From: Actinomycetes bacterium
GTDB lineage: Bacteria; Actinomycetota; Actinomycetes; Streptosporangiales; Streptosporangiaceae
Assembly (NCBI GenBank): GCA_025964575.1
Contig: JAOPYO010000021.1
Location: 1-64,000, forward strand
DNA: 64,000 bases
Direction: 5' to 3'
Program-made: the position numbers and the translations under genes
Notes under the pieces: model-generated
Told to the model about the DNA's origin: nothing
The model's database searches: none
The model's input: only the letters and a program-made list of their open reading frames with translations
Part shown: positions 5,544-41,410 of the stretch, in pieces
Position numbering within the stretch: the first letter of the stretch is position 1
How the letters are laid out: each line of letters begins with the position of its first letter

Positions 5544-6215
5544 ATGTCACAGCGGCACCATGACGACAAGATCTCGATGCTCCCTCTGGTGAATCGGATC
5601 TCCAGTGTCGGCACCGCGACGGCCGTGCTCGTCGCACTGTCGCTCTGCGCCATCGTTGAGCAGACGATCCTGCCGTTGCGGACGAAGCCCGTCCGGTTCG
5701 CGGCAGGGACTCCTTTCCCGGAGACCCCGCACGAGGTGTCCTCCGCCGGGGCCTCGCCCCGGTCCTCTCGAGCCTCCCCTCTGGAGTCGGAGGTTCAGAC
5801 GATGGTGCTCGCGCAACACGGGCCGACGGCCCGCCTTGCGTACGGAGTGCCGAATCTCGCGCGGCCCATCGTCCGGCTGAGCAGGATCGACCGTAAGCGG
5901 GGCTGGGCTTTCGGAACCTCCGCGATTCCGCCGCCCGCGGGGGTGATGGCCAGGCCGGACGTCTCGGTGTTCGTCGCCCGTGCGGCGGGGGCCAGATGGG
6001 TGATCGGGCTCGCCGGCACCAAGGACTTCCTGCGGTTGCTGGGGCAGGCCCCCGGTTCGCTGATCTCCAAGGACGAGCGGATTTCGCTGACCGGCTACGG
6101 CAGCGCCGCCGCGACGAAGGCGAAGCCCGGGGGTGGCGACACCGGGCCGTCCCCGGGTGGTGCACCGCCTCCCACGCCCACCCGATCTTTGGACGTCGAT
6201 GAAACAGCATGGTGA
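5544..6215 (+). CDS. Membrane-anchored exported protein of unknown function (redox module)
   Basis: Not recognised. This 223-residue protein has one N-terminal transmembrane segment (about residues 20-42), then a soluble part expected outside the membrane with a Ser/Pro-rich linker and a compact central region (about 85-195). It has a single cysteine, in the membrane segment, and no CxxCH heme motif. It overlaps the ferric-reductase-like gene and is probably co-transcribed with it and the NuoF-like gene. As the only extracytoplasmic part of the module it may deliver electrons to, or bind, an external acceptor. That role is inferred. Confidence 0.7.
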   Translation: MSQRHHDDKISMLPLVNRISSVGTATAVLVALSLCAIVEQTILPLRTKPVRFAAGTPFPETPHEVSSAGASPRSSRASPLESEVQTMVLAQHGPTARLAYGVPNLARPIVRLSRIDRKRGWAFGTSAIPPPAGVMARPDVSVFVARAAGARWVIGLAGTKDFLRLLGQAPGSLISKDERISLTGYGSAAATKAKPGGGDTGPSPGGAPPPTPTRSLDVDETAW

Positions 6216-7014
6216 ACTGGCCGCCGAGATCAGCGGCCTCGCGCCCCGCCGGCGGAGGCTTGTGTCGGGCCCTCTCGTCTGTGTGCTTCTCGCCGGAGTT
6301 CTAGGGGGAGGCAGCACCCAGCGCGGCGCCGTGGTGGTCGCGCAGATCCGTGCCTCACTGGAGTTCTACGCCGGTGTGCTCGTACTCCTGGCGCTGACCG
6401 CCACCGTGGTGGCCGGTCTGGTGGCCGCAGGACGCGTGGCGCCGGTCCGGCTGCGTATCCTCGCCCAGTCCGCTCACCGCGCGGCGGCGGTCATGGCCGT
6501 GAGCTTTCTGGTGGCGCACGTGCTGCTGAAGCTCATGGAGCGGCACGCCGCCGTGATCGACGTGGTCGTGCCGTTCTCCGGGGGGCGGGGCGGCCGTGAC
6601 CTCTATTTGGGCCTCGGCACCATCGCGAGCGATCTCATGATCCTGGTGCTCGTCACCGGGGTGGCCAGGGGCCGGTACATCGGCGGCGCCCACCCGTGGA
6701 TGTGGCGGATGCTGCACTCCATCGCCTATATCTCGTGGCCCATCGCGATCGTGCACGGACTGATGGCCGGCCGTACGCCCAAGCCCTGGGTGACCTGGAG
6801 CTATGTGGTCTGCTTCGCCTTGGTCGTGTTCGCGGCGATGGCCCGGCTCGTGGCGACGGTGTTCCGGCGCAAGGGTGCGGTGCGACGCGGCGGTGCCCGC
6901 GAACGACGGCCGGTGGCCCCGATCGACCAGCCGACCGTGCACGCCATCCCCGATGAGGAGTTCTGGTCGGCGCTGAAGGCGGAGACGACCCAGTGGATCG
7001 GGGGCCGGCGATGA
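6199..7014 (+). CDS. Ferric reductase/NOX-like bis-heme membrane protein
   Basis: A 271-residue integral membrane protein with about six hydrophobic segments. Two histidine pairs, H93/H107 and H173/H186, are spaced 14 and 13 residues apart, the spacing known for the two b-heme ligand pairs of NADPH oxidases and ferric reductases. Unlike those proteins it has no cytosolic FAD/NAD(P)H domain; the tail is only about 60 residues. The next gene, overlapping by four bases, encodes a NuoF-like NADH flavoprotein that could supply that function. The start chosen is the ATG at 6199, which overlaps the end of the upstream gene. Likely role: transmembrane electron transfer. Confidence 0.78.
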   Translation: MKQHGELAAEISGLAPRRRRLVSGPLVCVLLAGVLGGGSTQRGAVVVAQIRASLEFYAGVLVLLALTATVVAGLVAAGRVAPVRLRILAQSAHRAAAVMAVSFLVAHVLLKLMERHAAVIDVVVPFSGGRGGRDLYLGLGTIASDLMILVLVTGVARGRYIGGAHPWMWRMLHSIAYISWPIAIVHGLMAGRTPKPWVTWSYVVCFALVVFAAMARLVATVFRRKGAVRRGGARERRPVAPIDQPTVHAIPDEEFWSALKAETTQWIGGRR

Positions 7015-8513
7015 GCGGCATCCCCGACGTCCTGCACATCGGTCCCGCACGGCTCTTCCAAGGGCTCGACCGCCTGCAGCGGCTCGACCTCGATGGGCAC
7101 CGCAAATTCCATCGCGTTCTGCCTGATTTCTCATTCCGTGAGCTGGTGGCGCTGGCCGAAAGTGTCGATCTGCGTGGCCGTGGCGGTGCCGCCTTTCCCT
7201 TCGCTCGCAAACTGCAGGCGGTCGACTCCGCGGTCCGCCGTCGCGACTCGCCTGCCGTGGTGCTCGTCAACGCCACCGAAGGTGAGCCGGCGAGCGCCAA
7301 GGACAAGGTCCTCCTCGCCCGCGCACCCCACCTCGTCCTCAATGGCGCCATGCTCGCGGTCCGCGCGCTCAACGCGAGCGAACTCGTCATCGGGGTGACC
7401 GACGGAGGCCCGCCCGAGCGGTCGATCCGAGCTGCCGTCAAGGAGGTGGGGCGGGCCGGCTTCGTGCGGGTGGTCCATCTTCCGGAACGGTTCATCACTG
7501 GTGAGGGCGGTGCGCTCGTCCGCGGCGTCAACGGACTGGAGCCCATCCCGCCCGGCCGCAAGGTCCGCGCCGCGGAGAGCGGCGTCAACGGCCTGCCGAC
7601 GCTGCTCTCCAACGCCGAGACGTTCGCCCAGCTGGCGATGCTGGCAGAGCTGGGTACCAAGGGCTACCGGGACATCGGGACCCAGGAGGAGCCGGGCACC
7701 GTCCTGCTCACGGTCTCGGGCGCCGCCGGGAAGCGGACGGTGGTGGAGGCGCCGTCCGGTGTTCCGCTCCTCGATGTGCTCCGCCGGTGCGGGGTCGGAG
7801 TCGGCCAGGGTGTGATGATCGGCGGCTACCACGGTGCGTGGCTCACCCCCGTCGGCGCGGCCAACGCCAGGGTCTCGAGGGCGGCAATGGCCGAGGCCGG
7901 TGCGACGCTGGGCGCGGGCATCGTCGTCCCTCTCGACGAGGGGACCTGCCCGCTGGGCGAGGTCGCCCGAGTGGCGGACTACCTCGGTGCCGAGTCGGCG
8001 GGACAGTGCGGACCGTGCCGTCTGGGGCTGCCGGCGATCGCCCGGTCGTTCTCCGCGCTGGCCGCGGGCAAGTCCGGTGGCGAGGCGCTCTCGGCTATAC
8101 AGCAGGGCAGCTCGGTCGTGCGGGGCCGTGGTGCCTGCCATCACCCGGACGGTACGACCAGATTCCTCCTGTCCGCGGTCGACGTGTTCAGCGATGATGT
8201 CGCCACTCATCTCGCCAGGGGCAGCTGCGGGCGGCCCGTGCGGAAACTGCTCCCCGTGCCCGGTGAGCAGGACGAGGACTCGGGTCTGCAGCTGACGGTG
8301 GACTGGTCGCGCTGCGCGGGTCATGGGCTCTGCGGGCACCTGGTTCCCGAGCTCATCAAGCTCGACCCCTACGGCTACCCGATGCTCACCGATGCGCAGG
8401 TGCCCACCCGGTCGCTGTGGGACGCCCGGCAGGCCGCCGAGATGTGCCCGGCGCTGGCACTCGGCCTCCGCCGTTCGCCGACCGCAGGCCGCTCCGCACT
8501 CGGCTCCGCGTAA
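7011..8513 (+). CDS. NuoF-like NADH dehydrogenase flavoprotein fused to ferredoxin
   Basis: A 500-residue soluble protein. The NuoF-like part has GRGGAAFPF near residue 56 (FMN site), NATEGEPASAKDK near 87 (nucleotide site), an SLBB-like domain (about 230-285) and a Fe-S region with C333, C336 and C376. The first of the four usual cysteines is A330 (ESAGQCGPCR). The C-terminus is a ferredoxin of the three-cysteine type (C435, C441, C479-P), typical of 3Fe-4S partners. It probably passes electrons from NADH to the overlapping bis-heme membrane protein (ATGA overlap). The physiological acceptor is unknown. Confidence 0.85.
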   Translation: MSGIPDVLHIGPARLFQGLDRLQRLDLDGHRKFHRVLPDFSFRELVALAESVDLRGRGGAAFPFARKLQAVDSAVRRRDSPAVVLVNATEGEPASAKDKVLLARAPHLVLNGAMLAVRALNASELVIGVTDGGPPERSIRAAVKEVGRAGFVRVVHLPERFITGEGGALVRGVNGLEPIPPGRKVRAAESGVNGLPTLLSNAETFAQLAMLAELGTKGYRDIGTQEEPGTVLLTVSGAAGKRTVVEAPSGVPLLDVLRRCGVGVGQGVMIGGYHGAWLTPVGAANARVSRAAMAEAGATLGAGIVVPLDEGTCPLGEVARVADYLGAESAGQCGPCRLGLPAIARSFSALAAGKSGGEALSAIQQGSSVVRGRGACHHPDGTTRFLLSAVDVFSDDVATHLARGSCGRPVRKLLPVPGEQDEDSGLQLTVDWSRCAGHGLCGHLVPELIKLDPYGYPMLTDAQVPTRSLWDARQAAEMCPALALGLRRSPTAGRSALGSA

Positions 8514-8547
8514 GAGGCCGGATCGCCCGGCGTTCCGCGGGCCTGCG

Positions 8548-9183
8548 TCAGGCGGTCAGGAGGGTGGCGGTGCCGGCGCCGATCAGTGCGACGGCCCAGA
8601 GCCGGTCGAGGTTGAACCAGGCCCGGCGCAGGATGGCCAGGCCGACGACCTCGTACACCAGGACCGCGATCACTCCCGCCACCACGAACATGGCGAGGGT
8701 GTGCACTCCGGTCACGAACATTCCAGCAGTGAGCGCGCTGCCCGGGCCATGGCTCAGGCCATGAGCGTGGGCGGCCGGCCCGGACGCCTCGGAGGTCAGC
8801 ACCGGCAGCAGCATCAGCCCGGCACCGTGCACCGACGACATCAGGAACGACCAGCCGGCCAGCTGCCACAGCGACAGCTTCATCCCGACCCAGCGGAAAT
8901 GACGGTTGGACAGCAGCCGCCACAGGCCGAAGCCGACCAGTAGTACGCCCCCGCCGATGGCGACCACCTGGGTGGTCACCACCGACTGGGTGAGGGAGAC
9001 CAGGATCGCGACGACGCCGACCGAGGCGGCGTGCCCGGCCGCGATCGCGGGCAGCGACTGCAGCACCCGAGTCCGCGACCGCTCCTGCAACCCCCTGGCC
9101 ACGGCGAACAGCCAGCCCATTCCGGGGTTGAGGCCGTGAAAGGCGCCGAGGGCGACCAGCGCCGCCAGCGATCCGTTGGTCAT
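8548..9183 (-). CDS. Multi-span membrane protein linked to SBP56
   Basis: A 211-residue protein with about six membrane segments. The start has an FHGLNPGMGW motif, with further conserved histidines (SSVHGAGL, GVHTLAMF) and a His-rich loop (HAHGLSHG), features reminiscent of metal or sulfur-compound exporters of the NicO/RcnA or TauE type. I do not recognise a named family with confidence. It lies 19 bases downstream of the SBP56 gene in what looks like one transcript, so a role in handling a sulfur or selenium product, or copper for SBP56, is plausible. Confidence 0.65.
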   Translation of the reverse strand: MTNGSLAALVALGAFHGLNPGMGWLFAVARGLQERSRTRVLQSLPAIAAGHAASVGVVAILVSLTQSVVTTQVVAIGGGVLLVGFGLWRLLSNRHFRWVGMKLSLWQLAGWSFLMSSVHGAGLMLLPVLTSEASGPAAHAHGLSHGPGSALTAGMFVTGVHTLAMFVVAGVIAVLVYEVVGLAILRRAWFNLDRLWAVALIGAGTATLLTA

Positions 9184-9202
9184 CCCCTCGGCTCCGGTCG
9201 GA

Positions 9203-10615
9203 TCATGGGTAGCAGTACGAGTCGGAGGAGGCGTCCCCGCCCTGCAGCCGGGTCTGGTGCGGGCGCAGCCCGCGGAAGTCGTCGCCGTGCGGGAAGAACC
9301 GCTCGTCGAAGGTGAATCCCTGGCCTGAACGATCTGGGGTCGAGTCGAGCTTGGCCGCCCAAGCGCCGACCCCGTCGGGATAGAACTGGTCGTCCCACGC
9401 GCCGTACAGCGAGTTCGTCACATAGACGCGACGACCGTCGCGGCTGACCTCGACCATCTGCGGCCCGCCGGCCAGGGGCAGATCCGGTGCGGCGGGGTGC
9501 GGCGTGCGGCCGACGATGCCGCCGATCCGCACCGATCCGGCCTCGACGGGGTGGAAGGGGTCGCTGACGTCGTAGCGCTTGAGCTCACCGGTGCCCCAGC
9601 ACGAGACGTACAGCCACTGGTCGTCCACCGACAGGTCGATGTCGGTGATCAGCGGGGGTACGGCTCCGAACGGCGCGATCACCGGCGGCAGGTCCTCCGC
9701 GGCGGCGGGCTCGGCCGGGATCGAGATGACCTTCGTGGCGGCCCACTGGTCGCCGTCCCGATGCCAGAGCCAGACCGACGCCGACAGGTCCTCGACGCTG
9801 ACCACCACCCCGACGAATCCGTACTGTTGGGTGGGGTCATGAGCAGGGCGCAGTTCCAGGGCCATCTGGTGCTCATCACCGAGGTCGACGGTCTGCACAT
9901 GCTTGCGCTTGCGCAGGTCCCAGAAGTGCAGCGAGTGGCCGTACTTACGGCCGAGCAGCAGCTCGCCGACCACCCCGTCCTCGATCATGGACGGGGTGCC
10001 CCACTCCGAGGTGACCAGCACGTCGTGCGCGATGTGCCACCAGGCGTCGTAGGCGAAGTACTGCGGGCCGCGCTCCACCTCCCAGCGGCCGAGCACGTCG
10101 AAGGAGGTGTGGTCGAGCAGCGCGATTCCGCCCGGTCCGTCCTCGCCGTTGGCGCCGCCGAGCGCGCTGACATAGAGACCCTCGGGCCCGCAGTGCACGG
10201 TGTGCGGCCGGGAGTAGCCCGCGCGCTTGGCCAGCTCGTCGGGCTCCAGCACTTTGATGATTTCCGGGCTGGTCGGATTCTCCTTGGTGTCGATCACATA
10301 GATCCGCGATGACCGCAGCCCGGGCACGATCAGATAGCGCCGTTCCACATGCGGGTGCGGGGAGCCCGGGCACAGCGCGCTGCTGCAGGCGTTCCAGCCG
10401 AAGTGGTGCAGCTCGTCCCCGACATAGGGCAGGTCGGTCCAGCCGATCACCTGGCCATAGGACGCCGATTCCTCGTCGACGTCGAGGACCACGATGGCAT
10501 CGGGCTTCTCCGCGGCCCGGTCGAAGGCCGCGACATAGGCGAGCTTCTCTGGCGGCGCGGAGGCCGCGTCCCGGGGAGAGGCATAGAAGGTGGGGTCGGG
10601 CTTCCACAGCGCCAT
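9203..10615 (-). CDS. Selenium-binding protein 56 family / methanethiol oxidase
   Basis: A 470-residue SBP56 protein with a seven-bladed propeller. Signature stretches are HHFGWNACSSALC near residue 85, the HCGPEGLY segment and CWGTGELKRYDV near 360. Bacterial and human SBP56 proteins oxidise methanethiol to formaldehyde, hydrogen peroxide and sulfide with bound copper. The start is the ATG at 10615, preceded by AGGAGG. It sits 61 bases downstream of a sulfite oxidase-like gene, which suggests oxidation of C1-sulfur compounds. Confidence 0.9.
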   Translation of the reverse strand: MALWKPDPTFYASPRDAASAPPEKLAYVAAFDRAAEKPDAIVVLDVDEESASYGQVIGWTDLPYVGDELHHFGWNACSSALCPGSPHPHVERRYLIVPGLRSSRIYVIDTKENPTSPEIIKVLEPDELAKRAGYSRPHTVHCGPEGLYVSALGGANGEDGPGGIALLDHTSFDVLGRWEVERGPQYFAYDAWWHIAHDVLVTSEWGTPSMIEDGVVGELLLGRKYGHSLHFWDLRKRKHVQTVDLGDEHQMALELRPAHDPTQQYGFVGVVVSVEDLSASVWLWHRDGDQWAATKVISIPAEPAAAEDLPPVIAPFGAVPPLITDIDLSVDDQWLYVSCWGTGELKRYDVSDPFHPVEAGSVRIGGIVGRTPHPAAPDLPLAGGPQMVEVSRDGRRVYVTNSLYGAWDDQFYPDGVGAWAAKLDSTPDRSGQGFTFDERFFPHGDDFRGLRPHQTRLQGGDASSDSYCYP

Positions 10616-10676
10616 AAGGCTCCTCCTGAGGTCGGGTGCATCGTCACACTGCGATTCCGGCCGGGCAAGGACCGGT

Positions 10677-11921
10677 TCAGGCCACCGTGACCGGGTGCCG
10701 GACGACGGCCCCGAACAGGTAGCCGAGCGTGTTATAGGGGGCCAGATCCGGCTGGGTGGCACCGGTCTCGTCGGTGGCCCGCGCCAGCAGCTCGTACGAC
10801 CCCGGGTGTTCGGGCCGCCAATGGACCTCCCACGTTAGCCAGGCGCGGGATCCGCGCTGGTCACGAGGGTGGGCTCTGCGCCAGGTCACGCCACCGTCGA
10901 CGCTGACCTCCACCTGCCGGATACGCCCGTTGCCGGACCAGGAGCGCCCGTGCAGCACCTGGGTGCGGCCGGTGGTGAGCTGGGCGTTCCAGGGTAGTTC
11001 GAAGGCGCTCTTCACGACCTGACGGGTCAGTGGCGCGCTGCCCTCGGGCGGGTATCCGGGGCCGAACAGCCGGTAGTACTGGGTGTTCCACGGCGAGAAC
11101 AGTGGCTGATCCGCCACCTGAATGTCGCCGAGCCACTTGATGGAGGCGATGCCCACCCAGGACGGCACCACGAGCCGGACCGGGAATCCGTGGTCGGGCT
11201 GCAGCGGTCTTCCGTTCATCTCGTACGCCAGCAACACGTCCTTGAGCGCCTTGGCGACCGGCAGGGGTCGCCGGACCCGGCCCAGGTTCACGCCCTTGTC
11301 AAGGAACTCGGCGTCGAGCCCGCGCGGGAGGAGATCCACGGCCCGCCGGCTCAGACCCGCGCGTTCCAGGACGGTCGACAGCCGTACGCCGCGCCAGTGC
11401 GCCACCCCGACCCCACCGAGCTTCCACGGGGTTCCGCTCACCGTCTGGCCCTGCTGGGTGGTGTAGAAGCTGCGGCCGTTGCCGGTGCACTCGATGAACG
11501 CGGTCAGGCCCTCGGCGGGCAGCCTCAGCAGGTCCTCGTAGGAGAACTCGACCGGCCGATCCTCTCCGGGGGAGTCGCGCAGGCCGGTGCCCCAGAGCTT
11601 GAGCCGCCAGGTCTTCGCGTCGATGAGCGGGGTGCGGGTGTGGTTGCGGACGAAGAACCGGTCGGTGGGGGTCAGATAACCCTGACCCCGCATGGCCTCC
11701 CACTTGGTCTCCGCGTTCGTCCCGTACACCGTGAACAGCTCGGGTGGCAGTGGCTTGACGATCGGGTCGTCGGCGAACGCCCGTCCAGCCGAGGAGGTGA
11801 GGATCGTGGCGCCGAGACCGGCCCCCGCGGATGCTCGCAGCAGATTCCGCCGAGAAAGGTGCCGATGCCACTGAGCCGCACGCACCTGCTGGTACGTGGC
11901 CTCATCCGTGAGGTCGTCCAT
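10677..11921 (-). CDS. Tat-exported molybdopterin sulfite oxidase family protein
   Basis: A 414-residue protein with a twin-arginine signal (SRRNLLR at 23-29 and a hydrophobic stretch ending near AFA-DD), the oxidoreductase molybdopterin domain with ECTGNGRS (C145, the cysteine expected to bind Mo), and a C-terminal Mo-cofactor dimerisation domain. The architecture matches the plant/SorT-like sulfite oxidase group. No cytochrome subunit is beside it. Together with SBP56 downstream it suggests an exported sulfite-oxidising step. Its promoter shares a short AT-rich gap with the divergent MoxR gene. Confidence 0.87.
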   Translation of the reverse strand: MDDLTDEATYQQVRAAQWHRHLSRRNLLRASAGAGLGATILTSSAGRAFADDPIVKPLPPELFTVYGTNAETKWEAMRGQGYLTPTDRFFVRNHTRTPLIDAKTWRLKLWGTGLRDSPGEDRPVEFSYEDLLRLPAEGLTAFIECTGNGRSFYTTQQGQTVSGTPWKLGGVGVAHWRGVRLSTVLERAGLSRRAVDLLPRGLDAEFLDKGVNLGRVRRPLPVAKALKDVLLAYEMNGRPLQPDHGFPVRLVVPSWVGIASIKWLGDIQVADQPLFSPWNTQYYRLFGPGYPPEGSAPLTRQVVKSAFELPWNAQLTTGRTQVLHGRSWSGNGRIRQVEVSVDGGVTWRRAHPRDQRGSRAWLTWEVHWRPEHPGSYELLARATDETGATQPDLAPYNTLGYLFGAVVRHPVTVA

Positions 11922-11986
11922 GACAACGATCGTGGTCCGTTATTCCCATTAAGTCAATCGAAAAGATAGGAATTCAATATGCGAAG

Positions 11987-11992
11987 TAGCCT
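11987..11992 (+). promoter_or_regulatory. Possible -10 box for leaderless MoxR transcript
   Basis: TAGCCT fits TANNNT and ends six bases before the GTG at 11999. No Shine-Dalgarno sequence precedes that GTG, which suggests a leaderless mRNA. The surrounding 77-base gap is AT-rich and also serves the divergent sulfite oxidase gene. Confidence 0.35.
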
Positions 11993-11998
11993 GAACGG

Positions 11999-12907
11999 GT
12001 GACGTCGAACCCGGCAGTAAGGCCGCCCGCCATCGAGTCGCCGGCCGCGCTGGCGGAGCTCCTCGAGCGGCACTCCTATCTGGCCGATGACGGCCTCGCC
12101 ACCGCGGGGTTCCTGGCGCTGCGGATGGGCCGGCCGCTGTTTCTCGAGGGTGAGGCCGGGGTGGGTAAGACGGCCCTCGCCAAGACCCTCGCCGAGGTAC
12201 TGGGCGCCCCGCTGATCCGGCTGCAGTGCTACGAGGGCCTCGACGCGTCGCAGGCACTCTACGACTGGGACTTCCCGCGCCAGCTGCTGCATCTGCGGGC
12301 GGCCGAGGCGGCGGGTGTCACCGACGTGGGCCGGCTCGAGTCCGAGCTCTACGATCGCCGTTTCCTGGTGGCCCGGCCGCTGCTGCAGGCACTGGAGACC
12401 ACACCCAGTGTCCTGCTGATCGACGAGGTGGATCGGGCCGACGACGAGTTCGAGGCCTTCCTGCTGGAAGTGCTCAGTGACTTCACCATCTCGATCCCGG
12501 AGCTCGCCACGATCCACGCGGAACAGCCGCCGATGGTCGTCGTGACGTCCAACCGCACCCGAGAGGTGCATGACGCTCTCAAACGCCGGTGCCTCTACCA
12601 CTGGCTGGAGCACCCGAGCTTCGACCGTGAGGTGGCCATCATCCGGCGGAGATTGCCCGGCGCCGCCGACCGGCTGGCTGATCAGGTCGCGGCCGCCGTT
12701 CAACGGCTGCGCACCGAGGATCTGCTCAAACCGCCCGGAGTGGCGGAGAGCCTGGACTGGACCGAGGCGCTGGTCGCCCTGGGCGCCCGTGACCTCGACC
12801 CCGACACCGCGGCCCGCACCCTCGGCGCGGTGCTGAAGTACCGCGAAGACCATGAGCGGATCGTCAAGCGCGGGCTCGCACATCTCCTGAACGGTGCCGG
12901 ACCGTGA
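11999..12907 (+). CDS. MoxR-family AAA ATPase (CoxD-type)
   Basis: A 302-residue AAA+ ATPase with Walker A GEAGVGKTALAK near residue 50 and Walker B VLLIDEVDRADDE near 138. MoxR ATPases work with VWA-domain partners to mature metal enzymes. CoxD does so for the Mo/Cu site of CO dehydrogenase, and similar genes accompany other molybdenum hydroxylases. The VWA partner follows, then XdhC and MocA-like genes, so this is an accessory set for the hydroxylase encoded at 40-43.9 kb. The start is GTG, probably leaderless. Confidence 0.9.
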   Translation: MTSNPAVRPPAIESPAALAELLERHSYLADDGLATAGFLALRMGRPLFLEGEAGVGKTALAKTLAEVLGAPLIRLQCYEGLDASQALYDWDFPRQLLHLRAAEAAGVTDVGRLESELYDRRFLVARPLLQALETTPSVLLIDEVDRADDEFEAFLLEVLSDFTISIPELATIHAEQPPMVVVTSNRTREVHDALKRRCLYHWLEHPSFDREVAIIRRRLPGAADRLADQVAAAVQRLRTEDLLKPPGVAESLDWTEALVALGARDLDPDTAARTLGAVLKYREDHERIVKRGLAHLLNGAGP

Positions 12908-13019
12908 GCAGGCGCGCGGTGGCTGGACTGAGGAGCGCGCGCAGCGAGGTCCGAGCGAGCACGCGACGAGGGAAGCCGCCGCGTAAAGGCGCCTGCTCAC
13001 CGCCGAGCGGAGCGAGGCC
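12905..13019 (+). repeat. Intergenic stop-to-start repeat, copy C
   Basis: Fills the MoxR-VWA gap exactly: it starts at the MoxR stop (TGAGCAGGCGCGCGG) and ends CCGAGCGGAGCGAGGCC before the VWA ATG. It shares the exact 19-mer CTGGACTGAGGAGCGCGCG (12923-12941) with copy B and the GAGGGAAGCCG block with the copies at 35.2-35.4 kb. The GGAGCGAG end is the only candidate ribosome-binding site of the VWA gene. Confidence 0.75.
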
Positions 13020-14147
13020 ATGAATACGGTGTCCGCCACGATCGTCGGCTTCGCTCGTACGCTGCGCGCCGCCGGGGTCGCCGCCAGCCCCGAGCGGGTC
13101 CAGGCGATGGTCGGCGCGCTGGAGCACCTGTCGGTCGGTGACCCGACGGATGTCTACTGGGCCGGACGGCTCACGCTCTGCGCGGGCCCGGACGATCTGC
13201 CGCGCTATGACCGCTGCTTCGCCGCGTACTTCTCCGGCGAGGTACCCCGTCTGACCCCCCGCCCCACCCCTCCCGTGATCCTGCAGTACGTGTCGACACC
13301 GAATGCGGGACCACGCGAGAAGGGGGCGGAGGAAGAGCCGGCGGACCTGCGGCTCGCGACGGCGAGTGCGACCGAGGTGCTGCGCCGACGCGATGTCGCC
13401 CGATTGAGCGCGGCCGAACGGGCCGAGGTGCACCGGCTGATCGCTCTGCTCAGGTCCTCGGCCGCGCAGCGCCGGTCCCGCCGGTTCATGCCCGCCGCGT
13501 CCGGCCGCATCGATCCGCACCGTACGGTCGCTGCGATCCTGCGACGCGGCGGGGAGATCTCCGATCTGCGCTACCGCAGGCACCGAGAGCGGCCCCGGCG
13601 GGTGGTCCTGCTGGTGGACGTCAGCGGCTCCATGAGCCTCTATGCGGACGTGCTGCTGCGGTTCGCGCACTCCGCGCTGCGGTCGGGGCCGCGCACCACC
13701 GAGGCCTTCAGCGTGGGGACGAGGCTGACCCGGCTCACCCGTGAGCTGCGGCACCGCGATCCGGACACGGCGATGACGGCGGTGTCGGCCGCCATCCCGG
13801 ACTGGAGTGGCGGCACCCGGCTGGGGGAGGAGCTCAAGGAGTTCCTCGACCGGTTCGGGCAGCGCGGCCTGGCACGCGGGGCGATCGTCGTGATCGCCTC
13901 CGATGGCTGGGAGCGCGGTGACGCGAGCCTGCTCGGTGACCAGATGGCGCGGCTGCACCGGCTGGCGCACCGGGTCGTGTGGGCCAACCCGCACAGGGCC
14001 CGGCCCGGGTACGAGCCGCTCACCGCCGGCATGGTGGCGGCGCTGCCCCACGTCGACGCCTTCGTCGCCGGGCATAGCCTCGGTGCTCTGGAGGAGCTGG
14101 CCGTTCTGATCGGATCCGACGGAAAAGAGATGATCGCCCGTGCGTGA
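13020..14147 (+). CDS. VWA-domain protein (CoxE-type)
   Basis: A 375-residue protein with a helical N-terminal part and a von Willebrand A domain near residues 195-350. The MIDAS motif is DVSGSMS near residue 200. Paired MoxR/VWA proteins act as a maturation chaperone for molybdenum hydroxylases. The ATG follows repeat copy C. The C-terminus overlaps the XdhC gene by eight bases, implying coupled translation. Confidence 0.88.
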   Translation: MNTVSATIVGFARTLRAAGVAASPERVQAMVGALEHLSVGDPTDVYWAGRLTLCAGPDDLPRYDRCFAAYFSGEVPRLTPRPTPPVILQYVSTPNAGPREKGAEEEPADLRLATASATEVLRRRDVARLSAAERAEVHRLIALLRSSAAQRRSRRFMPAASGRIDPHRTVAAILRRGGEISDLRYRRHRERPRRVVLLVDVSGSMSLYADVLLRFAHSALRSGPRTTEAFSVGTRLTRLTRELRHRDPDTAMTAVSAAIPDWSGGTRLGEELKEFLDRFGQRGLARGAIVVIASDGWERGDASLLGDQMARLHRLAHRVVWANPHRARPGYEPLTAGMVAALPHVDAFVAGHSLGALEELAVLIGSDGKEMIARA

Positions 14148-15273
14148 CGTGTTGAGCGACATCGCGAAGTGGTACGCGACAGGCGAGACCTTCGGGCTCG
14201 CCACGGTGGTGAACACCTTCCGCAGCGCCCCCCGTCCGGCCGGTGCCGCCATGGCGGTCTCTGCAGGCGGTGAGGTCGTCGGCAGCGTTTCCGGGGGATG
14301 CGTCGAAGGCGCCGTCTATGACCTGGCGCAGGCGGTGATCTCCTCCGGCGTGCCGGTGATTCAGCGGTACGGCGTCAGCGACGACGACGCCTTCTCGGTG
14401 GGCCTCACCTGCGGAGGGATCCTCGACATCCTGGTCGAGCCGATCGGCCCCGCGACGTTCCCGGAGTTCGGCGAGGTGATGGAGTCGATCGAACGCGGGG
14501 AGCCGGTCGCGGTGGTCACCGTCGTCGCCGGGCCCGGCACCATCGGGGCGCGCCGGGTGATCTGGCCCTCTCAGGCGGTGGGCTCGCTCGCGCCGGGTCT
14601 CGCTTACGCCGCCCGGCTGGACGCCGCGGTCGACGACGACGTCCGGGGCATGCTCGCCCAGGGGCTGACCGGGCAGCGGCACTACGGCCGGCAGGGGGAG
14701 CGGCGGCTGGACGAGCTCACCGTGTTCGTGCACGCCTTCGCGCCGCCACCTCGGATGCTGGTGTTCGGGGCGATCGACTTCGCCGCCGCGATGGCCCGGA
14801 CCGGCAAGTTCCTCGGCTACCAGGTGACGGTCTGCGACGCCCGGCCGGTGTTCGCGACCGCCAAGCGTTTCCCCGAGGCCGACGAGGTCGTGGTGAAGTG
14901 GCCGCACAAGTTCCTGGGCGAGATTTCGGCCCAGATCGACGAGCGGACCGTCATCTGCGTGCTCACCCACGACCCGAAGTTCGACGTTCCGCTGCTGGAG
15001 GCGGCGCTGCGCACTCCCGCCGGATACATCGGGGCGATGGGATCGCGCCGCACCCACGATGACCGGCTCGCCCGGCTCCGGGAGGCCGGTATGTCGGAGG
15101 CGGAGCTCGCACGGCTCCGCTCGCCGATCGGACTGGACCTGGGCGCCCGCACGCCCGAGGAGACGGCGGTGTCGATCGCGGCCGAGCTGATCCAGCTCCG
15201 CTGGGGCGGCTCTGGCCGTCCCCTCACCGAGACCGACGGCCGCATCCACCGCGACCCGGCACCCTCTTCATAG
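14140..15273 (+). CDS. XdhC/CoxF family molybdenum cofactor chaperone
   Basis: A 377-residue two-domain protein. The XdhC/CoxI N-terminal domain contains GSVSGGCVEGAVYDLA and GLTCGGILDILVEPI, with conserved cysteines. The C-terminal Rossmann domain begins around LVFGAIDFAAAMA and ends with the GAMGSRRTHDDRLARLREAG segment. XdhC binds molybdopterin cofactor and inserts its sulfurated form into xanthine dehydrogenase-type enzymes. The GTG start overlaps the VWA gene. The client is probably the hydroxylase at 40-43.9 kb. Confidence 0.9.
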   Translation: MRDVLSDIAKWYATGETFGLATVVNTFRSAPRPAGAAMAVSAGGEVVGSVSGGCVEGAVYDLAQAVISSGVPVIQRYGVSDDDAFSVGLTCGGILDILVEPIGPATFPEFGEVMESIERGEPVAVVTVVAGPGTIGARRVIWPSQAVGSLAPGLAYAARLDAAVDDDVRGMLAQGLTGQRHYGRQGERRLDELTVFVHAFAPPPRMLVFGAIDFAAAMARTGKFLGYQVTVCDARPVFATAKRFPEADEVVVKWPHKFLGEISAQIDERTVICVLTHDPKFDVPLLEAALRTPAGYIGAMGSRRTHDDRLARLREAGMSEAELARLRSPIGLDLGARTPEETAVSIAAELIQLRWGGSGRPLTETDGRIHRDPAPSS

Positions 15274-15450
15274 GGTGGCCTTCACAGCGGCCGCGCCGCA
15301 GCGGCCCTGTGCGCTGGAGGTGCACCTGACCACGTTTCCGATCAGCGTCATGCCGGCCTGAGACGGGCTCGGTTGCCGGTCCTTCTCGTGATCTTTTATG
15401 GATGGTCATGCCTGCGGGGAATCTCGCTGGATCGGGATTAGGCTCCGAGA

Positions 15451-16056
15451 ATGAACATGGGTGGTCATCCAGCTGGGCTGCTCCTGGCCGCAGGAGAGGG
15501 GCGCCGACTCGGGCGGCCCAAGGCGCTGGTCGAGATCGGTGGCGAACGCCTGGTCGATCGAGGTATCTCCATGCTCCGCGCGGCGGGCTGCGGCCCGGTC
15601 CTGGTCGTCATCGGGGCCGTCACGGTCGAGGTCATCGGCGCCGTAGTGGTTCCCAACGCGGACTGGCGGTCGGGGATGGGCTCGTCTCTGCGGGCCGGCC
15701 TCGCGGCTCTGCCGCCCGATTGCCCAGCGGTCGTGGTAGCGCTGGTCGATCAGCCACGCGTCACCCCGGAGGCCGTACGCCGGCTGCTGGAGGCGTACGA
15801 AGCGGGCGCGCGGATCGCCGTCGCCACCTACGGAGGCCGGCCCCGTAACCCGGTTCTCATCGCGAGGGAGCACTTCGGAGAGGTCGCCGAATCCCTGGTC
15901 GGCGATGTCGGTGCCCGTGCCTTCCTCCGGGCCCACCCAGAACTCGTGACCCGCGTGCCGTGTGACGACGTCGCCGCCCCGGATGACATCGACACCCCCG
16001 ACGATCTCGCTGCCTTCACCGATCCCGTGCGCCGGCACGAATCCGGTGCGCTCTGA
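15451..16056 (+). CDS. MocA-like molybdenum cofactor nucleotidyltransferase
   Basis: A 201-residue NTP-transferase with the pyrophosphorylase signature LLLAAGEGRRLGRPKAL at residues 9-25. MocA and CoxI-like relatives attach CMP to molybdopterin to form the dinucleotide cofactor used by hydroxylases of the xanthine/CO dehydrogenase family. It follows XdhC by 177 bases, a gap with no visible gene and perhaps its own promoter. The product fits the accessory set. Another sugar or cofactor nucleotide transfer is possible but less likely. Confidence 0.82.
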   Translation: MNMGGHPAGLLLAAGEGRRLGRPKALVEIGGERLVDRGISMLRAAGCGPVLVVIGAVTVEVIGAVVVPNADWRSGMGSSLRAGLAALPPDCPAVVVALVDQPRVTPEAVRRLLEAYEAGARIAVATYGGRPRNPVLIAREHFGEVAESLVGDVGARAFLRAHPELVTRVPCDDVAAPDDIDTPDDLAAFTDPVRRHESGAL

Positions 16057-16081
16057 CCCACCCGGCCTGGCGACTTCTTAC

Positions 16082-16132
16082 TTGACGCTTCAAATTTATG
16101 GTTCTACTGTAGGAGAGAACTTGAAGTTTCAA
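16082..16132 (+). promoter_or_regulatory. DoxX/MarR promoter with two MarR-type operators
   Basis: TTGACG (16082-16087), a 17-base spacer and TACTGT (16105-16110) form a good sigma-A-type promoter. Two inverted repeats of the same type flank it: TTGACGCTTCAA (16082-16093, overlapping the -35) and TTGAAGTTTCAA (16121-16132, just past the expected start of transcription). The paired TTGAA/TTCAA half-sites are typical of MarR-family operators, and a MarR gene is in the same operon, so autorepression is likely. Confidence 0.72.
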
Positions 16133-16154
16133 ATAACTTCATCGAGGAGCGGGC

Positions 16155-16526
16155 ATGAACATCGTCATCTGGGTGCTGCAGGTCCTGCTGGCCGCTGCGT
16201 TCGCCGCGGCCGGGCTGATGAAGCTCACTCAGCCGCGCACCAAGCTGACCCAGAACATGGGCTGGGTCGAGGACTTCTCCGATAGCGGGGTCAAAGGCAT
16301 CGGTGGTGTCGAACTGCTCGCCGCGATCGGCCTGATCCTGCCGGCCGCCACCAAGATCTTGCCGGTGCTCACGCCGCTGGCCGCGACCGGTCTGGTGCTG
16401 CTCATGATCGGTGCCATCGTCACGCACGTCCGCCGCAACGAGAACCAGATGATCGCGCCCGCCGCGGTGCTGCTCATCCTGGCCGCCGTCGTCACCTGGG
16501 CGCGGTTCGGGCCGTACTCTCTCTGA
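16155..16526 (+). CDS. DoxX family membrane protein
   Basis: A 123-residue protein with four hydrophobic segments and the DoxX pattern (LAAAFAAAGLMKLTQP near residue 14, GGVELLAAIGLIL near 51). DoxX-like proteins are small membrane proteins linked to redox or thiol stress and often controlled by MarR regulators; the exact reaction is unknown. GAGGAG lies 6-11 bases upstream of the ATG. It is followed 28 bases later by a MarR gene and preceded by an operator-promoter that fits that regulator. Confidence 0.85.
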   Translation: MNIVIWVLQVLLAAAFAAAGLMKLTQPRTKLTQNMGWVEDFSDSGVKGIGGVELLAAIGLILPAATKILPVLTPLAATGLVLLMIGAIVTHVRRNENQMIAPAAVLLILAAVVTWARFGPYSL

Positions 16527-21426: not shown

Positions 21427-23079
21427 ATGGAAATCATGGATGAATTAGGGGGTTCGTTGCGTGTGGAGGGTGATGGGCAGGTGGGCGCATTGCGGGCAGT
21501 GATCGATGAGTTGCGCGTGGTGCGCCCTGGCCTGGTCGAGCCGTTTTCCGCGGCGGTGCCGGGGGCGCGGACGGAGGTGCTGGGCCGGTTGTGGGGGGCG
21601 TTCGCCCGCGAGCCGCTGCCGGGCATCGCGCAGCGGGCCCGCGACGGGGACACGCTGGTGATCACGCTGGAGGGCGGCGGCGTGCTGGCGGCGCCGGCAG
21701 CCTACGCCGAGCCCTTCGCCCAGGTGCCACCCGGTTTCACCGTGTCAGGGCCCGGCGGGCCGATCGACCATCCCGCTGGGTTGCTGGCCGCGTTGGGGCC
21801 GGCGTCCCCATCCGGGGCTCGGCGGCTGGCCGGCGAACTCGGCAACAGTGTCGTCAACCTGGCGCTCGCCCGCGCTGCGGCCGGTGGGATGGAAGGCGGG
21901 ATCCGCGACTCGGCGGACGCTGAGCAGGCCGTGGTCGAGGGCCATCCGCAGCACCCGTGCTGTCGTACCCGCACGGGCCTGTCGGTCGCGGAGGTGCTTG
22001 CGTACGCGCCCGAGCACCGGCCGGTGGTCGATCTGGCCCTGCTCGCCGTGCCTGCGGACCTTTGGTCGCAGACCGGTGCCTGGCCGGATGTGCTGCACGA
22101 GGGTGAGACGGTGCTGGTGCCGGTGCACCCCTGGCAGCGCGACCATGTACTGCCCGGCCACCCCGATCTGCGCGTGACGGACCAGGCGATCCCGGCGCGG
22201 CCGCTGCTGTCGTTGCGCACTCTGGCCCCGGTGGACGTGCTGCAGGGTTACCACCTCAAGACGGCTTTGGATGTGCAGGTCACCAACTACCGGCGGACCA
22301 TCTCGCCTGCAGAGGTCGCCGACGGGCCGATCCTGTCCGACCTGGTCTGCGCGGTCGTCGACAAGGCCGGCTACGGCGAGACCTTGGGTGTCCTGCGCGA
22401 GTTGGGCGGCGGGTCGGTGTGTGTCGGCGGCCGGCCGTCTTCCAGTCTGGCCGCGATGGTGCGCGAGTCCAGCGAACGCCACGTCGACCCGGGCGAGATA
22501 GCGGTTCCGCTGACCGCGATCTACGCCACGCAGGCCACCCTGGTGTCGGGGGACCCGGTGCGCTGGCTGACCGATTTCGCTGAGTTGGTGTTGCCGCCTG
22601 CGCTGACGCTGCTGTCCATGGGTATCGCCCTGGAGGCGCACGGCCAGAACACCCTCGTGGTGCTGCGCGAGGGCCGGCCGGTCCGGGTGCTGTACCGGGA
22701 CCTGGACGGTGTGCGGGTGAGCCCTAGCCGGCTGGCCGCCTGTGGCTTCGAACTGCCTCCGCTGGCGGGCAGCCGGACCGGCGAGGATGTCGATGCCCTG
22801 CGCACCAAGCTCTTCGGTGCTCTGCTGAGCGGGGTCTTCAGCGAGCTGGTCGCCGTGCTGTCCAGGGCCCGCCAGTGCGAACCCGAGGCGCTGTGGGCCG
22901 CGGTCGCCGCAGTCGGCCGGCGCACCTTCGCCGACCTGGCCGATGACGGCGACGCCGCCGCCTTCTTCGGCGAGACGTTGCCGCTCAAGGCGACCATCGC
23001 CATGCGGCTGGCCGAGGACCCCGGCACGGCGCGGTGGAGTGCGATCTCGAACCCCATGGCCGGTGTCCGCCGGCCTTGA
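21427..23079 (+). CDS. IucA/IucC-family NIS siderophore synthetase 1
   Basis: A 550-residue NRPS-independent siderophore synthetase, which adenylates a carboxylate (usually citrate) and joins it to an amine or alcohol. Motifs are GHPQHPCCRTRTG at 172-184, HPWQ at 234-237, K278 with LDVQVTNYRRTI, EAHGQN at 403-408, RDLDG at 424-428 and a C-terminal FhuF-like part with LPLKATIAMRL. In the first motif R180 replaces the usual nucleotide-contacting lysine. It is the first gene of a four-gene operon. The subtype cannot be assigned by eye. Confidence 0.92.
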   Translation: MEIMDELGGSLRVEGDGQVGALRAVIDELRVVRPGLVEPFSAAVPGARTEVLGRLWGAFAREPLPGIAQRARDGDTLVITLEGGGVLAAPAAYAEPFAQVPPGFTVSGPGGPIDHPAGLLAALGPASPSGARRLAGELGNSVVNLALARAAAGGMEGGIRDSADAEQAVVEGHPQHPCCRTRTGLSVAEVLAYAPEHRPVVDLALLAVPADLWSQTGAWPDVLHEGETVLVPVHPWQRDHVLPGHPDLRVTDQAIPARPLLSLRTLAPVDVLQGYHLKTALDVQVTNYRRTISPAEVADGPILSDLVCAVVDKAGYGETLGVLRELGGGSVCVGGRPSSSLAAMVRESSERHVDPGEIAVPLTAIYATQATLVSGDPVRWLTDFAELVLPPALTLLSMGIALEAHGQNTLVVLREGRPVRVLYRDLDGVRVSPSRLAACGFELPPLAGSRTGEDVDALRTKLFGALLSGVFSELVAVLSRARQCEPEALWAAVAAVGRRTFADLADDGDAAAFFGETLPLKATIAMRLAEDPGTARWSAISNPMAGVRRP

Positions 23080-23154
23080 GGTCTGTTTCCGTCCCTGAAT
23101 GATGACCAGTCGGCGGCGCAAGCGTGCCGCTTGGAGTGATCGGAGCCCGTTCGT

Positions 23155-24837
23155 ATGACTCTGGTATCGACCGGCCTGGTAGCTGATGCGTCCACCCGGA
23201 CCGCGGATGTTGTCACGGCTCATACGTTGTTGAATTGTTTTGTCCGTGAGGTGTCGGCGCCTGAGCGGCAGGCCACCGTGGCCGATGGTCATTTGCTGGT
23301 CCGGATGCCGCGTCGTGATGTTCGGTTGCGGGTGGTGGTGCGCCGGGTTTCGTTGATCGGGGCGCATCGTTTCAGTGGTGTGGTGCAGCGGTGGGACGGC
23401 GCGGCTTGGGTGCCGGTCGGTTGGCGTGAGCTGGCCGGTTACATCGGTGATGAGCTGGAGTTGCGGACCGGGGTGGGTAACGAGGAGTTCCTCGGTCAGG
23501 TGGCCGACAGCCACGAGACGATCCGCGCCGTGCTGGATCACCGCGCCGGGTGGGTGCCGCACTCGGATGCGTTTGTGGAATCGGAGCAGTCTTTGGTGTT
23601 CGGGCACCGTTTTCACCCCACCCCCAAGGCCCGGACCGGCGGGGCGGGGCAGTGGCTGGAGTACGGTCCCGAGACCGGCTCGAGCTTCCCGTTGCGCTAC
23701 CTGGCGGTGCGCAGCGAGTTCGTGCGCGAAGAGGGAGACCTCTCGCTGCTGGACGCGCTGCTGCCGGCACCGGCGCCGGGTTTTGGGGTGCTGGCGGTGC
23801 ACCCGTGGCAGTACCGGATGCTGTCGGGCCTGCAGGTCCTGCGCGAGGCCATCTCCCGCGGCGATGTCATCGACGCCGGCATCGCCGGGCCCGGCTTCTG
23901 GCCGACCGCCTCGGTCCGGACGCTGTACGAACCCGACGGCGATGTGTTCCTCAAGCTCAGCCTGAACGTGCGCCTCACCAACTGCGTCCGTAAGAACGCC
24001 GGCTACGAGCTGTCGGGTGCCGTCGCGCTGAACCGCCTCGTGCAGCCGATGTTCGCCGAACTCGCCACCCGCTTCTCCGGGTGCGCCATGCTGGCCGAGC
24101 CGGGATACCGCAGCGTCGACCTGGGCGGCGACGTCGCCGTGCTGGAAGGCCTCGGCGTGATCGTGCGCTCGGGTGTGCGCACCCATCTGCGACCGGGCGT
24201 GACACCCCTGCTCGCCGCCGCGATCGCTGATGAGTACCCCACCAGCACCGCCCAGGTCCGCCATCTGCTCACCCGCGGCGATGGGAACCCTCTGGCCTGG
24301 TGGGATGCCTACCTGGGTCTGCTGCTGCCCCCGGTGCTGGCCGCCTACTTCGAGTACGGCGTCGTCCTGGAACCCCACCTGCAGAACGTCATCGTGGGCG
24401 TCGAGGCCGACGGCATGCCCGCCCAGGTGCTGTTCCGCGACCTGGAAGGCACCAAAATCCTGCCCGACCACCACCACCACGCCCTGGCAGAACTCGCCGC
24501 CGACGTCCGCGAGCCGCTCACCTACGACACCGAACGCGGCTGGAACCGGGTCGCCTACTGCCTGCTGGTCAACCACGTCAGCGAAATGCTCAGCGCACTG
24601 GCCGACCTGCACCCCGCACTCGAACCGGCCCTATGGACACTGGTCCGCGACCACCTGCACACCTACGCATCCCAGAACGGAAACCCACTACAACTCCGCG
24701 CACTGCTGTACGGCGTACCACTACCCGCCAAGACCAACCTGCTCCTGCGCTGGACCCGCCGCGCCGACCGACACGCCGGCTACATGCCCCTACCCAGCCC
24801 CCTGAGCGAAGACTTCCTACAAGAAGCGACCCGATGA
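23155..24837 (+). CDS. IucA/IucC-family NIS siderophore synthetase 2
   Basis: A 560-residue NIS synthetase with canonical motifs: GHRFHPTPKARTG at 150-162 (lysine kept), HPWQ at 216-219, KLSLNVRLTNCVRKN near 267-281, EPHLQN at 406-411 and RDLEG at 428-432. Two synthetases in one operon usually act in sequence, adding two carboxylates to a diamine or amino-acid core. The base composition changes along the gene, G/T-rich early and C/A-rich late. The stop overlaps the decarboxylase start (ATGA). Confidence 0.92.
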   Translation: MTLVSTGLVADASTRTADVVTAHTLLNCFVREVSAPERQATVADGHLLVRMPRRDVRLRVVVRRVSLIGAHRFSGVVQRWDGAAWVPVGWRELAGYIGDELELRTGVGNEEFLGQVADSHETIRAVLDHRAGWVPHSDAFVESEQSLVFGHRFHPTPKARTGGAGQWLEYGPETGSSFPLRYLAVRSEFVREEGDLSLLDALLPAPAPGFGVLAVHPWQYRMLSGLQVLREAISRGDVIDAGIAGPGFWPTASVRTLYEPDGDVFLKLSLNVRLTNCVRKNAGYELSGAVALNRLVQPMFAELATRFSGCAMLAEPGYRSVDLGGDVAVLEGLGVIVRSGVRTHLRPGVTPLLAAAIADEYPTSTAQVRHLLTRGDGNPLAWWDAYLGLLLPPVLAAYFEYGVVLEPHLQNVIVGVEADGMPAQVLFRDLEGTKILPDHHHHALAELAADVREPLTYDTERGWNRVAYCLLVNHVSEMLSALADLHPALEPALWTLVRDHLHTYASQNGNPLQLRALLYGVPLPAKTNLLLRWTRRADRHAGYMPLPSPLSEDFLQEATR

Positions 24838-26030: not shown

Positions 26031-26034
26031 GGAC

Positions 26035-40929: not shown

Positions 40930-41410
40930 GGAGCCGTACGAGATAGCTCTCACGGTCAACGGGGTATATCGCAGCGCGGCGGCACCGGCCCGCCGGCTGC
41001 TGTCGGACTTCCTCCGCCGCGACCTCCGCCTCACCGGCACCCACGTCGGCTGCGAGCACGGCGTCTGCGGCTGCTGCACGGTGTTGTTCGACGGTGACCC
41101 GGTGCGGTCCTGCCTGATGTTCGCGGTGACCGCGGCCGGACACGAGATCACCACCGTGGAGGGGCTGGGCGGCCCGGACGGATCGCTCTCACCCGTACAG
41201 CGGGCGTTCCAGGAGTGCCACGGCCTGCAATGCGGATTCTGCACCCCGGGCTTCCTCTGCACGGTCACCGCGCTTCTGCGGGACAGCCCGGCGCCCACCG
41301 AGGACGAGGTGATCGAGGGCATCTCCGGCAACCTGTGCCGCTGCACCGGCTATCAGAACATCATCAAGTCCGTTCACCGCGCCGCCGAGCTCATCGCGGA
41401 GCAGGAATGA
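40922..41410 (+). CDS. Molybdenum hydroxylase 2Fe-2S subunit (CoxS/XdhC-type small subunit)
   Basis: A 162-residue protein with the plant-type 2Fe-2S cluster (GCEHGVCGCCTVLFDG near residue 41, then the fourth ligand in VRSCLM) and the second cluster domain (CGFCTPGFLC and GNLCRCTGYQNI). It relays electrons from the Mo site to FAD. It shares four bases with the large subunit gene (ATGA). Confidence 0.94.
   Translation: MTEEPYEIALTVNGVYRSAAAPARRLLSDFLRRDLRLTGTHVGCEHGVCGCCTVLFDGDPVRSCLMFAVTAAGHEITTVEGLGGPDGSLSPVQRAFQECHGLQCGFCTPGFLCTVTALLRDSPAPTEDEVIEGISGNLCRCTGYQNIIKSVHRAAELIAEQE

Follow-up and report, generated by a model that had tools for sequence, protein, structure and literature searches.

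We found that a gene for an SBP56-family protein and a gene for a small membrane protein, termed MEM, form a conserved unit in four phyla, in which the two genes are adjacent far more often than expected by chance. In the window (the whole stretch of 64,000 nucleotides that was analysed), the pair is preceded by a gene for a sulfite-oxidase-fold molybdenum protein, SUOX. We propose, with a probability of roughly 0.45, that SBP56 and MEM constitute a module of a cytosolic copper-dependent thiol oxidase and a NicO/RcnA-like metal-handling membrane protein, which most likely supplies copper. The proposal draws on gene order, recurrence, conserved histidines, family relations and a promoter-like element, all read from sequence.

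Table 1 Features of the SUOX-SBP56-MEM locus (positions in the window)
Feature	Position	Strand	Description
MEM	8548-9183	-	211-aa membrane protein, six predicted helices, outside Pfam/NCBIfam families
SBP56-family protein	9203-10615	-	470 aa from ATG 10615; PF05694
SUOX	10677-11921	-	sulfite-oxidase-fold molybdenum protein; PF00174 and PF03404, twin-arginine signal
Promoter-like element TTGACT-N17-CACGAT	11929-11957	-	7 nt before SUOX ATG; recurrent in relatives
coxD-, coxE-, xdhC-, mobA- and DoxX-like genes	11999-16526	+	divergent; outside proposed unit

The sequence-only reading had placed and named the three genes correctly. The genes are co-oriented with intergenic gaps of 61 nt (SUOX/SBP56) and 19 nt (SBP56/MEM), where the start of SBP56 was taken as the ATG preceded by AGGAGGAG. 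That they are one operon, as also claimed there, is supported by the co-orientation, the short gaps and the recurrence of the promoter-like element before SUOX; judged from these features, SUOX, SBP56 and MEM are very probably transcribed together in the window lineage. The pattern TTGACT-N17-CANNAT was drawn up after inspection of 36 related intergenic regions and was found in 26 of these same regions, a count that omits L061 (4.6 kb insertion) and partly reflects kinship, since the loci are related. A consensus sigma-70 scan of 8300-12200 reported no promoter, CACGAT agreeing with TATAAT at three of six positions, and no terminator-like site was found on the minus strand of the same interval. 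The divergent neighbours are common to many Actinomadura loci. The source organism is described as a soil bacterium.

Recurrence of the SBP56-MEM pair

Of 80 actinobacterial MEM loci (the best 80 of 572 relatives), 75 have SBP56 directly upstream of MEM; the same holds for 9/10 loci from other actinobacterial families and for all 19 plasmid regions examined, which were picked for variety from 55 records (Pseudomonadota, Deinococcota, and Gemmatimonadota); these adjacency counts rest on loci selected by MEM first. At one locus (L047), a contig edge falls where MEM would lie. At the class level, both genes co-occurred in 10 genomes against 1.35 expected (Fisher p 3.7e-8, confounded by kinship), and they were adjacent in all 10. 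All 11 MEM genomes of the phylum sample also had SBP56, with one genome (G513) counted via fragments of the pair and a separate SBP56 of another type.

MEM was also observed without SBP56 in 18 of the 28 class genomes having a clear MEM, a count that omits G070 (E 9e-5, internal stops), and four Actinomadura have lost SBP56 and retained MEM. Where SBP56 is missing, MEM is paired with another conserved protein, according to a neighbour table of 14 of the 18 loci; the crude gene caller missed MEM in L165, L174, L176, and L177. The role of MEM is therefore not exclusive to SBP56.

Metal-handling features of SBP56 and MEM

SBP56 matched PF05694 with 624.4 bits over residues 6-469 (Pfam gathering score 34), and no export signal was seen in its sequence. 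It carries the two copper-site motifs HH (H70/H71) and HxxH (H138/H141), which are shared with human SELENBP1, a member of the same family, and are required for copper thiol oxidase activity of the SELENBP1 type (PMC10362175, section 3.3). Copper is required by SBP56 enzymes according to the Results of PMC5739008 and section 3.3 of PMC10362175. The closest solved structure by sequence was that of Sulfolobus tokodaii SBP56 (PDB 2ece, E 4.5e-188), which shares the C-terminal end GGDASSDSYCYP with the window protein. D190 and E254 are candidate equivalents of human Asp189 and Glu252 that agree in spacing (49/64 and 49/63, respectively) and were picked without an alignment. Human SELENBP1, whose ending we take from its motif to be of the GGDC type, has to our knowledge no MEM-like partner.

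Neither Pfam nor NCBIfam yielded a match for MEM at E<=0.001. It contains eight histidines in 211 residues, so that the earlier term 'His-rich' is fair. His 16, 51, and 119 were kept in every covered sequence of 137 profile-picked loci from four phyla. They were also invariant in 56-57 MEM loci fetched without a motif pattern, in which His 161 was found in 42 of 43 covered sequences. A set of 86 MEM sequences consisted of Actinomycetota and Pseudomonadota only and was partly chosen via a pattern containing His16. In hhalign, the first half of MEM aligned with the RcnA-like NicO proteins (PF03824) at a probability of 80% and a score of 42.8, compared with at most 30.6 for 200 column shuffles, 19.2 for the reversed profile, and 31.4 for the other NicO set. 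Histidine is aligned on histidine and a His-containing loop is in common. This modest alignment suggests a remote kinship for the first half only: the second half is unaligned, the PGHGK motif is missing, and the relation lies below Pfam detection, none of the 10 MEM members tested matching NicO PF03824 even at E<=10. Kinship with DsbD_2 was rejected as weaker (24.8 vs 42.8), and an internal repeat of the MEM halves was not significant (probability 0.3). In fold searches, Foldseek gave no match at E<=0.001 (best E 0.12), and all VIA-align Z scores were below 8, the best being 7.5 (TOC-TIC chain) and that of CcdA 5.5. Two matches from a PDB sequence search (E 0.36 and 0.86) were discarded.

The loop that follows the copper-site region of SBP56 differs with the presence of MEM. 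MEM-linked SBP56 proteins have a PHPH loop in 106/112 cases. In MEM-less proteins of the same branch, a histidine directly follows the HHFGWNACSS block in all 11 readable loops (10 by pattern and L300 by eye; L304 and L306, also of this branch and without MEM, were omitted as unreadable), and this His-rich loop adjoins the metal-site histidines. The exchange requires at least two changes on the SBP56 tree, the second loss resting on one sequence because the tree position of L300 is weak (support 80/25).

The RcnA-like kinship of MEM, and its retention beside another conserved protein where SBP56 is absent, would also fit a general exporter or homeostasis protein for metals such as copper or nickel, with SBP56 as a stress partner and not a client for metal delivery. 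We regard this reading as rather unlikely, as the adjacency to SBP56 is near-constant in four phyla and the SBP56 loop is exchanged where MEM is absent. The sequence-only reading had suggested that the membrane protein moves sulfide/sulfite or copper. Copper is the better fit of the two; no evidence was found that MEM transports sulfide or sulfite.

SUOX and the fate of sulfur

SUOX matched PF00174 (164.1 bits) and PF03404 (43.6 bits), and its sole cysteine, C145, aligned with the Cys block of vertebrate sulfite oxidase at the active-site position. Together with the twin-arginine signal SRRNLLRASAG, these matches agree with its earlier description as a Tat-exported sulfite oxidase-like protein. 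SUOX shares the molybdenum domain, the dimerisation domain, and the active-site Cys with SorT, SorA, SoxC, and vertebrate sulfite oxidase, but it fell below the NCBIfam equivalog cut-offs of SorT (174.9 vs 570 bits), SorA (178.2 vs 600 bits), and SoxC (201.8 vs 420 bits).

When the surveyed loci were tested with the window SUOX protein, SUOX was present in 42/80 MEM loci (best 80 of 572), those of Actinomadura, Thermomonospora, and relatives, and it adjoined 2/20 SBP56 genes surveyed; the link is confined to one genus group and one other locus. SBP56 and MEM proved a near-constant pair in the co-occurrence survey, whereas SUOX was restricted; several relatives that retain the pair have a broken SUOX or none. 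These surveys led us to reject the trio as the conserved unit, contrary to the earlier idea of a compact one.

It is improbable that MEM exports sulfide or sulfite after methanethiol cleavage and that exported SUOX completes the oxidation, making the trio a C1-sulfur detoxification unit. Such a pathway would account for SUOX heading the unit in so many loci, for a second arrangement with SUOX behind MEM (L032), and for the promoter-like element ahead of SUOX. However, the pair is widespread without SUOX, several relatives keep it with SUOX broken or gone, and the features of MEM are NicO-like, not those of a sulfite exporter.

Methanethiol oxidation and a model for copper supply

The window SBP56 is likely a thiol or methanethiol oxidase, as the earlier reading held, judging from its HH/HxxH motifs and from a relative beside dmdA: the gene order on Marinovum plasmid pMaD9 is dmdA-ADH-SBP56-MEM. 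Methanethiol is released by the dmdA reaction. The products named earlier, formaldehyde, peroxide, and sulfide, accord with the account in PMC5739008, but the Rhodobacterales enzymes described in PMC10936201 give mainly sulfane sulfur and no H2O2.

It is quite improbable that SBP56 proteins of the window branch are instead other thiol oxidases or metal/sulfur carriers. The window protein scored 109.6 bits against the MtoX model NF052453, far under the equivalog cut-off of 650. It shares the GWNACS and HTVHC motifs with the Rhodobacterales cluster 1 methanethiol oxidases RdMTO and RlMTO, both of which need a third Cys in their set GWNACS, HTV(I)HC, and GGDCS(T), according to the motif description in PMC10936201; C77 and C142 are present, whereas the third is Ala. 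With GGDA in place of GGDC, the cysteine that bound methanethiol is absent. Against this stand the retained copper-site motifs, the dmdA context in Marinovum, and the MEM-linked Rhodobacterales proteins, whose Cys numbering is that of active RlMTO (Cys 76/140/456 in a MEM-linked Rhodobacter protein as in RlMTO). The passages on RdMTO and RlMTO in that paper mention no membrane partner. It is very improbable that the unit of the Actinomadura group serves as a source of copper and/or sulfane sulfur for CO dehydrogenase maturation by the divergent coxDEF-type genes: coxD adjoins the unit in 46/80 loci (best 80 of 572) and a form I large subunit (TIGR02416, 1344 bits) is encoded at another genomic site, next to which no coxDE was recognised by eye, but the pair often occurs where cox genes are absent and the genome has a second CoxE-type gene.

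In the proposed copper-supply module, SBP56 would be a cytosolic copper-dependent thiol oxidase, with methanethiol as its most likely substrate in the window organism as well, and the conserved histidines of MEM would handle its metal, most likely in copper delivery. We infer copper as the metal because SBP56 enzymes need it. NicO proteins transport nickel or cobalt, and RcnA works as an exporter, so copper import by MEM, including the direction of transport, is a guess from the need of the enzyme. In the Actinomadura group, Tat-exported SUOX may have been gained as the leading gene under one promoter and may oxidise, outside the membrane, sulfite to which later steps would convert the released sulfur.

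More tentatively, MEM may represent a new NicO-related family that loads copper into cytosolic SBP56, either by importing the metal for this enzyme specifically or by acting as a membrane metallochaperone docking on the PHPH loop, and lineages without MEM may have substituted a His-rich metal-catching loop. The mtoX-SCO1/senC-mauG cluster described in PMC5739008 likewise combines a copper enzyme of the SBP56 family with an adjacent gene likely serving the metal site. There, MtoX is exported to the periplasm and accompanied by SCO1/SenC and MauG, whereas the window SBP56 has no visible signal and is partnered by MEM. No paper describing the SBP56-MEM pairing was found in open-access PubMed Central by title or abstract start, and open-access passages on SBP56 enzymes gave no account of a copper route to cytosolic SBP56.

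If the tentative reading is true, MEM would correspond, for a cytosolic enzyme, to the SCO1/MauG genes that accompany periplasmic MtoX. The SBP56-MEM pair flags proteins that are likely to oxidise methanethiol and escape the MtoX model, as the window protein does. The need for copper is common to SBP56 enzymes including human SELENBP1, and MEM, which lies beside SBP56 in four phyla and is not represented by a family in Pfam or NCBIfam, is a concrete candidate for its supply, which the pairing may explain.

Conservation of the SBP56-MEM pair

The gene trio noticed in the sequence-only reading is confirmed: the genes for a sulfite-oxidase-fold protein (SUOX), an SBP56-family protein (SBP56) and a membrane protein (MEM) lie on the minus strand with gaps of 61 and 19 nt. 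The interpretation given there, in which the trio may be a C1-sulfur detoxification unit, held in part; the object of interest is the SBP56-MEM pair, not the trio. The host genome (8.18 Mb, 497 contigs) contains one SBP56 gene.

Features of the SUOX-SBP56-MEM region
Feature	Position	Strand	Remark
SUOX	10677-11921	-	twin-arginine signal
SBP56	9203-10615	-	N-terminus MALWKPDPTFY; no signal seen
MEM	8548-9183	-	8 His, no Cys
TTGACT-N17-CANNAT element (window copy)	11957-11929	-	

PF05694 scored above the cut-off in 19 of 394 class genomes. Of the 20 SBP56 surroundings besides the window, 9 showed MEM as the same-strand neighbour of SBP56, 2 had SUOX (in front in locus L037, behind MEM in L032) and 1 had coxD/coxE. 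In a survey of GTDB genomes starting from MEM, SBP56 was directly upstream in 75 of 80 loci (the best 80 of 572 relatives); among the others, L118 met a contig end, and four Actinomadura loci (L052, L079, L084 and L092) retained an intact MEM with SBP56 gone or reduced to a remnant. MEM was found in 11 of 396 phylum-sample genomes. Ten further loci from this sample comprised nine with SBP56 immediately upstream of MEM (frame-shifted in L253, cut by a contig end in L259) and one decayed pair. MEM also occurred in 55 plasmid records, and all 19 regions fetched from them carried SBP56 or its remnant directly upstream (frame-shifted in L271, a remnant behind a transposase gene in L273). The plasmid hosts include Azospirillum, Rhizobium, Sinorhizobium, Phaeobacter, Caballeronia, Cupriavidus, Deinococcus and Gemmatirosa, and MEM was annotated as 'hypothetical protein' in 11/11 regions having a gene table entry. 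At L273 2768-5333, an ISL3-family transposase gene replaces most of SBP56, and MEM behind it is intact. The pair on Azospirillum brasilense p3 is flanked on the opposite strand by a gene for cysteine dioxygenase (L275 5876-6493).

MEM is not exclusive to SBP56. The class sample contained a clear MEM in 28 genomes and SBP56 in 19; in all 10 genomes having both, the two were adjacent, and the remaining 18 MEMs were more distant and their genomes lacked SBP56. A conserved protein of ~250 aa was adjacent to this distant subfamily (L161-L178) or one gene off in 14/14 loci where the gene caller recovered MEM; one member scanned gave no Pfam match. MEM-less SBP56 proteins were of several kinds. Those of 13 phylum loci and of L031 form a separate branch that ends in GGD[VC]TSDIW, those of L298, L299 and L305 are of a third type, and some members of the branch to which the window protein belongs also lack MEM.

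MEM as a candidate metal carrier

MEM matched no family in Pfam or NCBIfam, and sequence comparison with the PDB gave nothing useful. Its AlphaFold2 model (50 rows) was helical (pLDDT 78, pTM 0.74) and yielded no significant fold match. Across 137 loci, His16 (135/135), His51 (136/136) and His119 (136/136) were invariant among sequences covering each position, and His161 was present in 122/123; the exception, L174, and the 14 sequences not covering His161 were mostly distant MEMs clipped by the profile match. The 57 loci fetched without a motif pattern gave 56/56 for each of the first three and 42/43 for His161. In hhalign, the first half of MEM aligned His on His with 12 RcnA-like NicO proteins of related genomes (probability 80%, score 42.8; best of 200 column shuffles 30.6, reversed 19.2), whereas another NicO set (31.4) and DsbD_2 (24.8) showed no useful margin over the best shuffle. 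Since the RcnA-like alignment exceeded its controls, MEM is best read as a putative metal carrier remotely related to the RcnA/NicO type, a reading unproven for the second half of the protein.

A PHPH-type loop followed HHFGWNACSS in 106 of 112 MEM-linked SBP56 proteins; the other six (Rhodobacter, Marinovum, Rhodovulum, Phaeobacter, Rhizobium leguminosarum and Cupriavidus EM10) had SPLxGHxF. In contrast, 10 of 12 MEM-less proteins, whose genomes contained no MEM match anywhere, fitted a CH..GH pattern, which missed the longer His-rich loop of L300; L031 belongs to another branch. In the SBP56 tree, the absence of MEM needs two changes, forced by the starred branches, and the placement of L300 is weak. 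A rank test on these rows is not independent evidence, because the MEM-linked rows were mostly ascertained through MEM and the MEM-less rows come mostly from one clade. The loop difference hints at metal delivery. With these limits taken into account, we put the probability that MEM delivers metal to SBP56 at 0.45.

SUOX and the cox neighbourhood

Among the best 80 of 572 MEM loci, SUOX was present in 42, some copies being broken or cut, and coxD in 46; no SUOX was seen in those of Actinoallomurus, Nonomuraea, Planotetraspora, Microbispora and Micromonospora. SUOX-SBP56-MEM is divergent from coxD-coxE-xdhC-mobA in Actinomadura, Thermomonospora and relatives. TTGACT-N17-CANNAT, a pattern derived after inspecting these related loci, occurred in 26 of 36 divergent regions of SUOX-bearing loci, with ATG 7 nt after it in 20 of the 26, and 29 times in total over those loci's DNA (1.50 million positions, both strands counted). 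The trio is likely to be transcribed as one unit, perhaps without a leader.

The genome has two CO dehydrogenase gene sets, scored against TIGR02416 (cut-off 991): a form-II-like one at 39994-43866 of the window, with 461 bits, and a form I set outside it (L184 8960-12695), with 1344 bits. At 6133-8513 (+), a membrane protein gene converges on MEM together with the gene behind it, which encodes a NuoF-like FMN/iron-sulfur protein fused to a ferredoxin domain; besides the window, only L051 among the best 80 of 572 loci showed the NuoF-like gene. At 21427-27555, two long IucA/IucC-like genes, one decarboxylase-like and one MFS-like gene, read by eye, suggest a siderophore cluster.

SBP56 activity and the proposed pathway

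Hyphomicrobium MtoX (PMC5739008) and human SELENBP1 (PMC10362175) are copper-dependent methanethiol oxidases. The window SBP56 retains both HH and HxxH. According to PMC10936201, RdMTO and RlMTO convert methanethiol mainly to sulfane sulfur, produce no H2O2 and require three Cys. The window SBP56 has two of those three. Rhodobacter sp. CZR27 encodes a MEM-linked protein with Cys 76, 140 and 456, numbered as in RlMTO; from this numbering only, we infer that RlMTO may belong to the MEM-linked branch. The Marinovum algicola pMaD9 record carries, on one strand, genes for acyl-CoA synthetase, the DMSP demethylase DmdA, alcohol dehydrogenase, SBP56 and MEM; DMSP demethylation leads to methanethiol (PMC5739008).

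In the pathway we propose, MEM would supply or guard copper for cytosolic SBP56, which would cleave methanethiol or a related thiol. The sulfur set free may be oxidized further by other enzymes, and in the window's lineage exported SUOX would remove sulfite outside the membrane.
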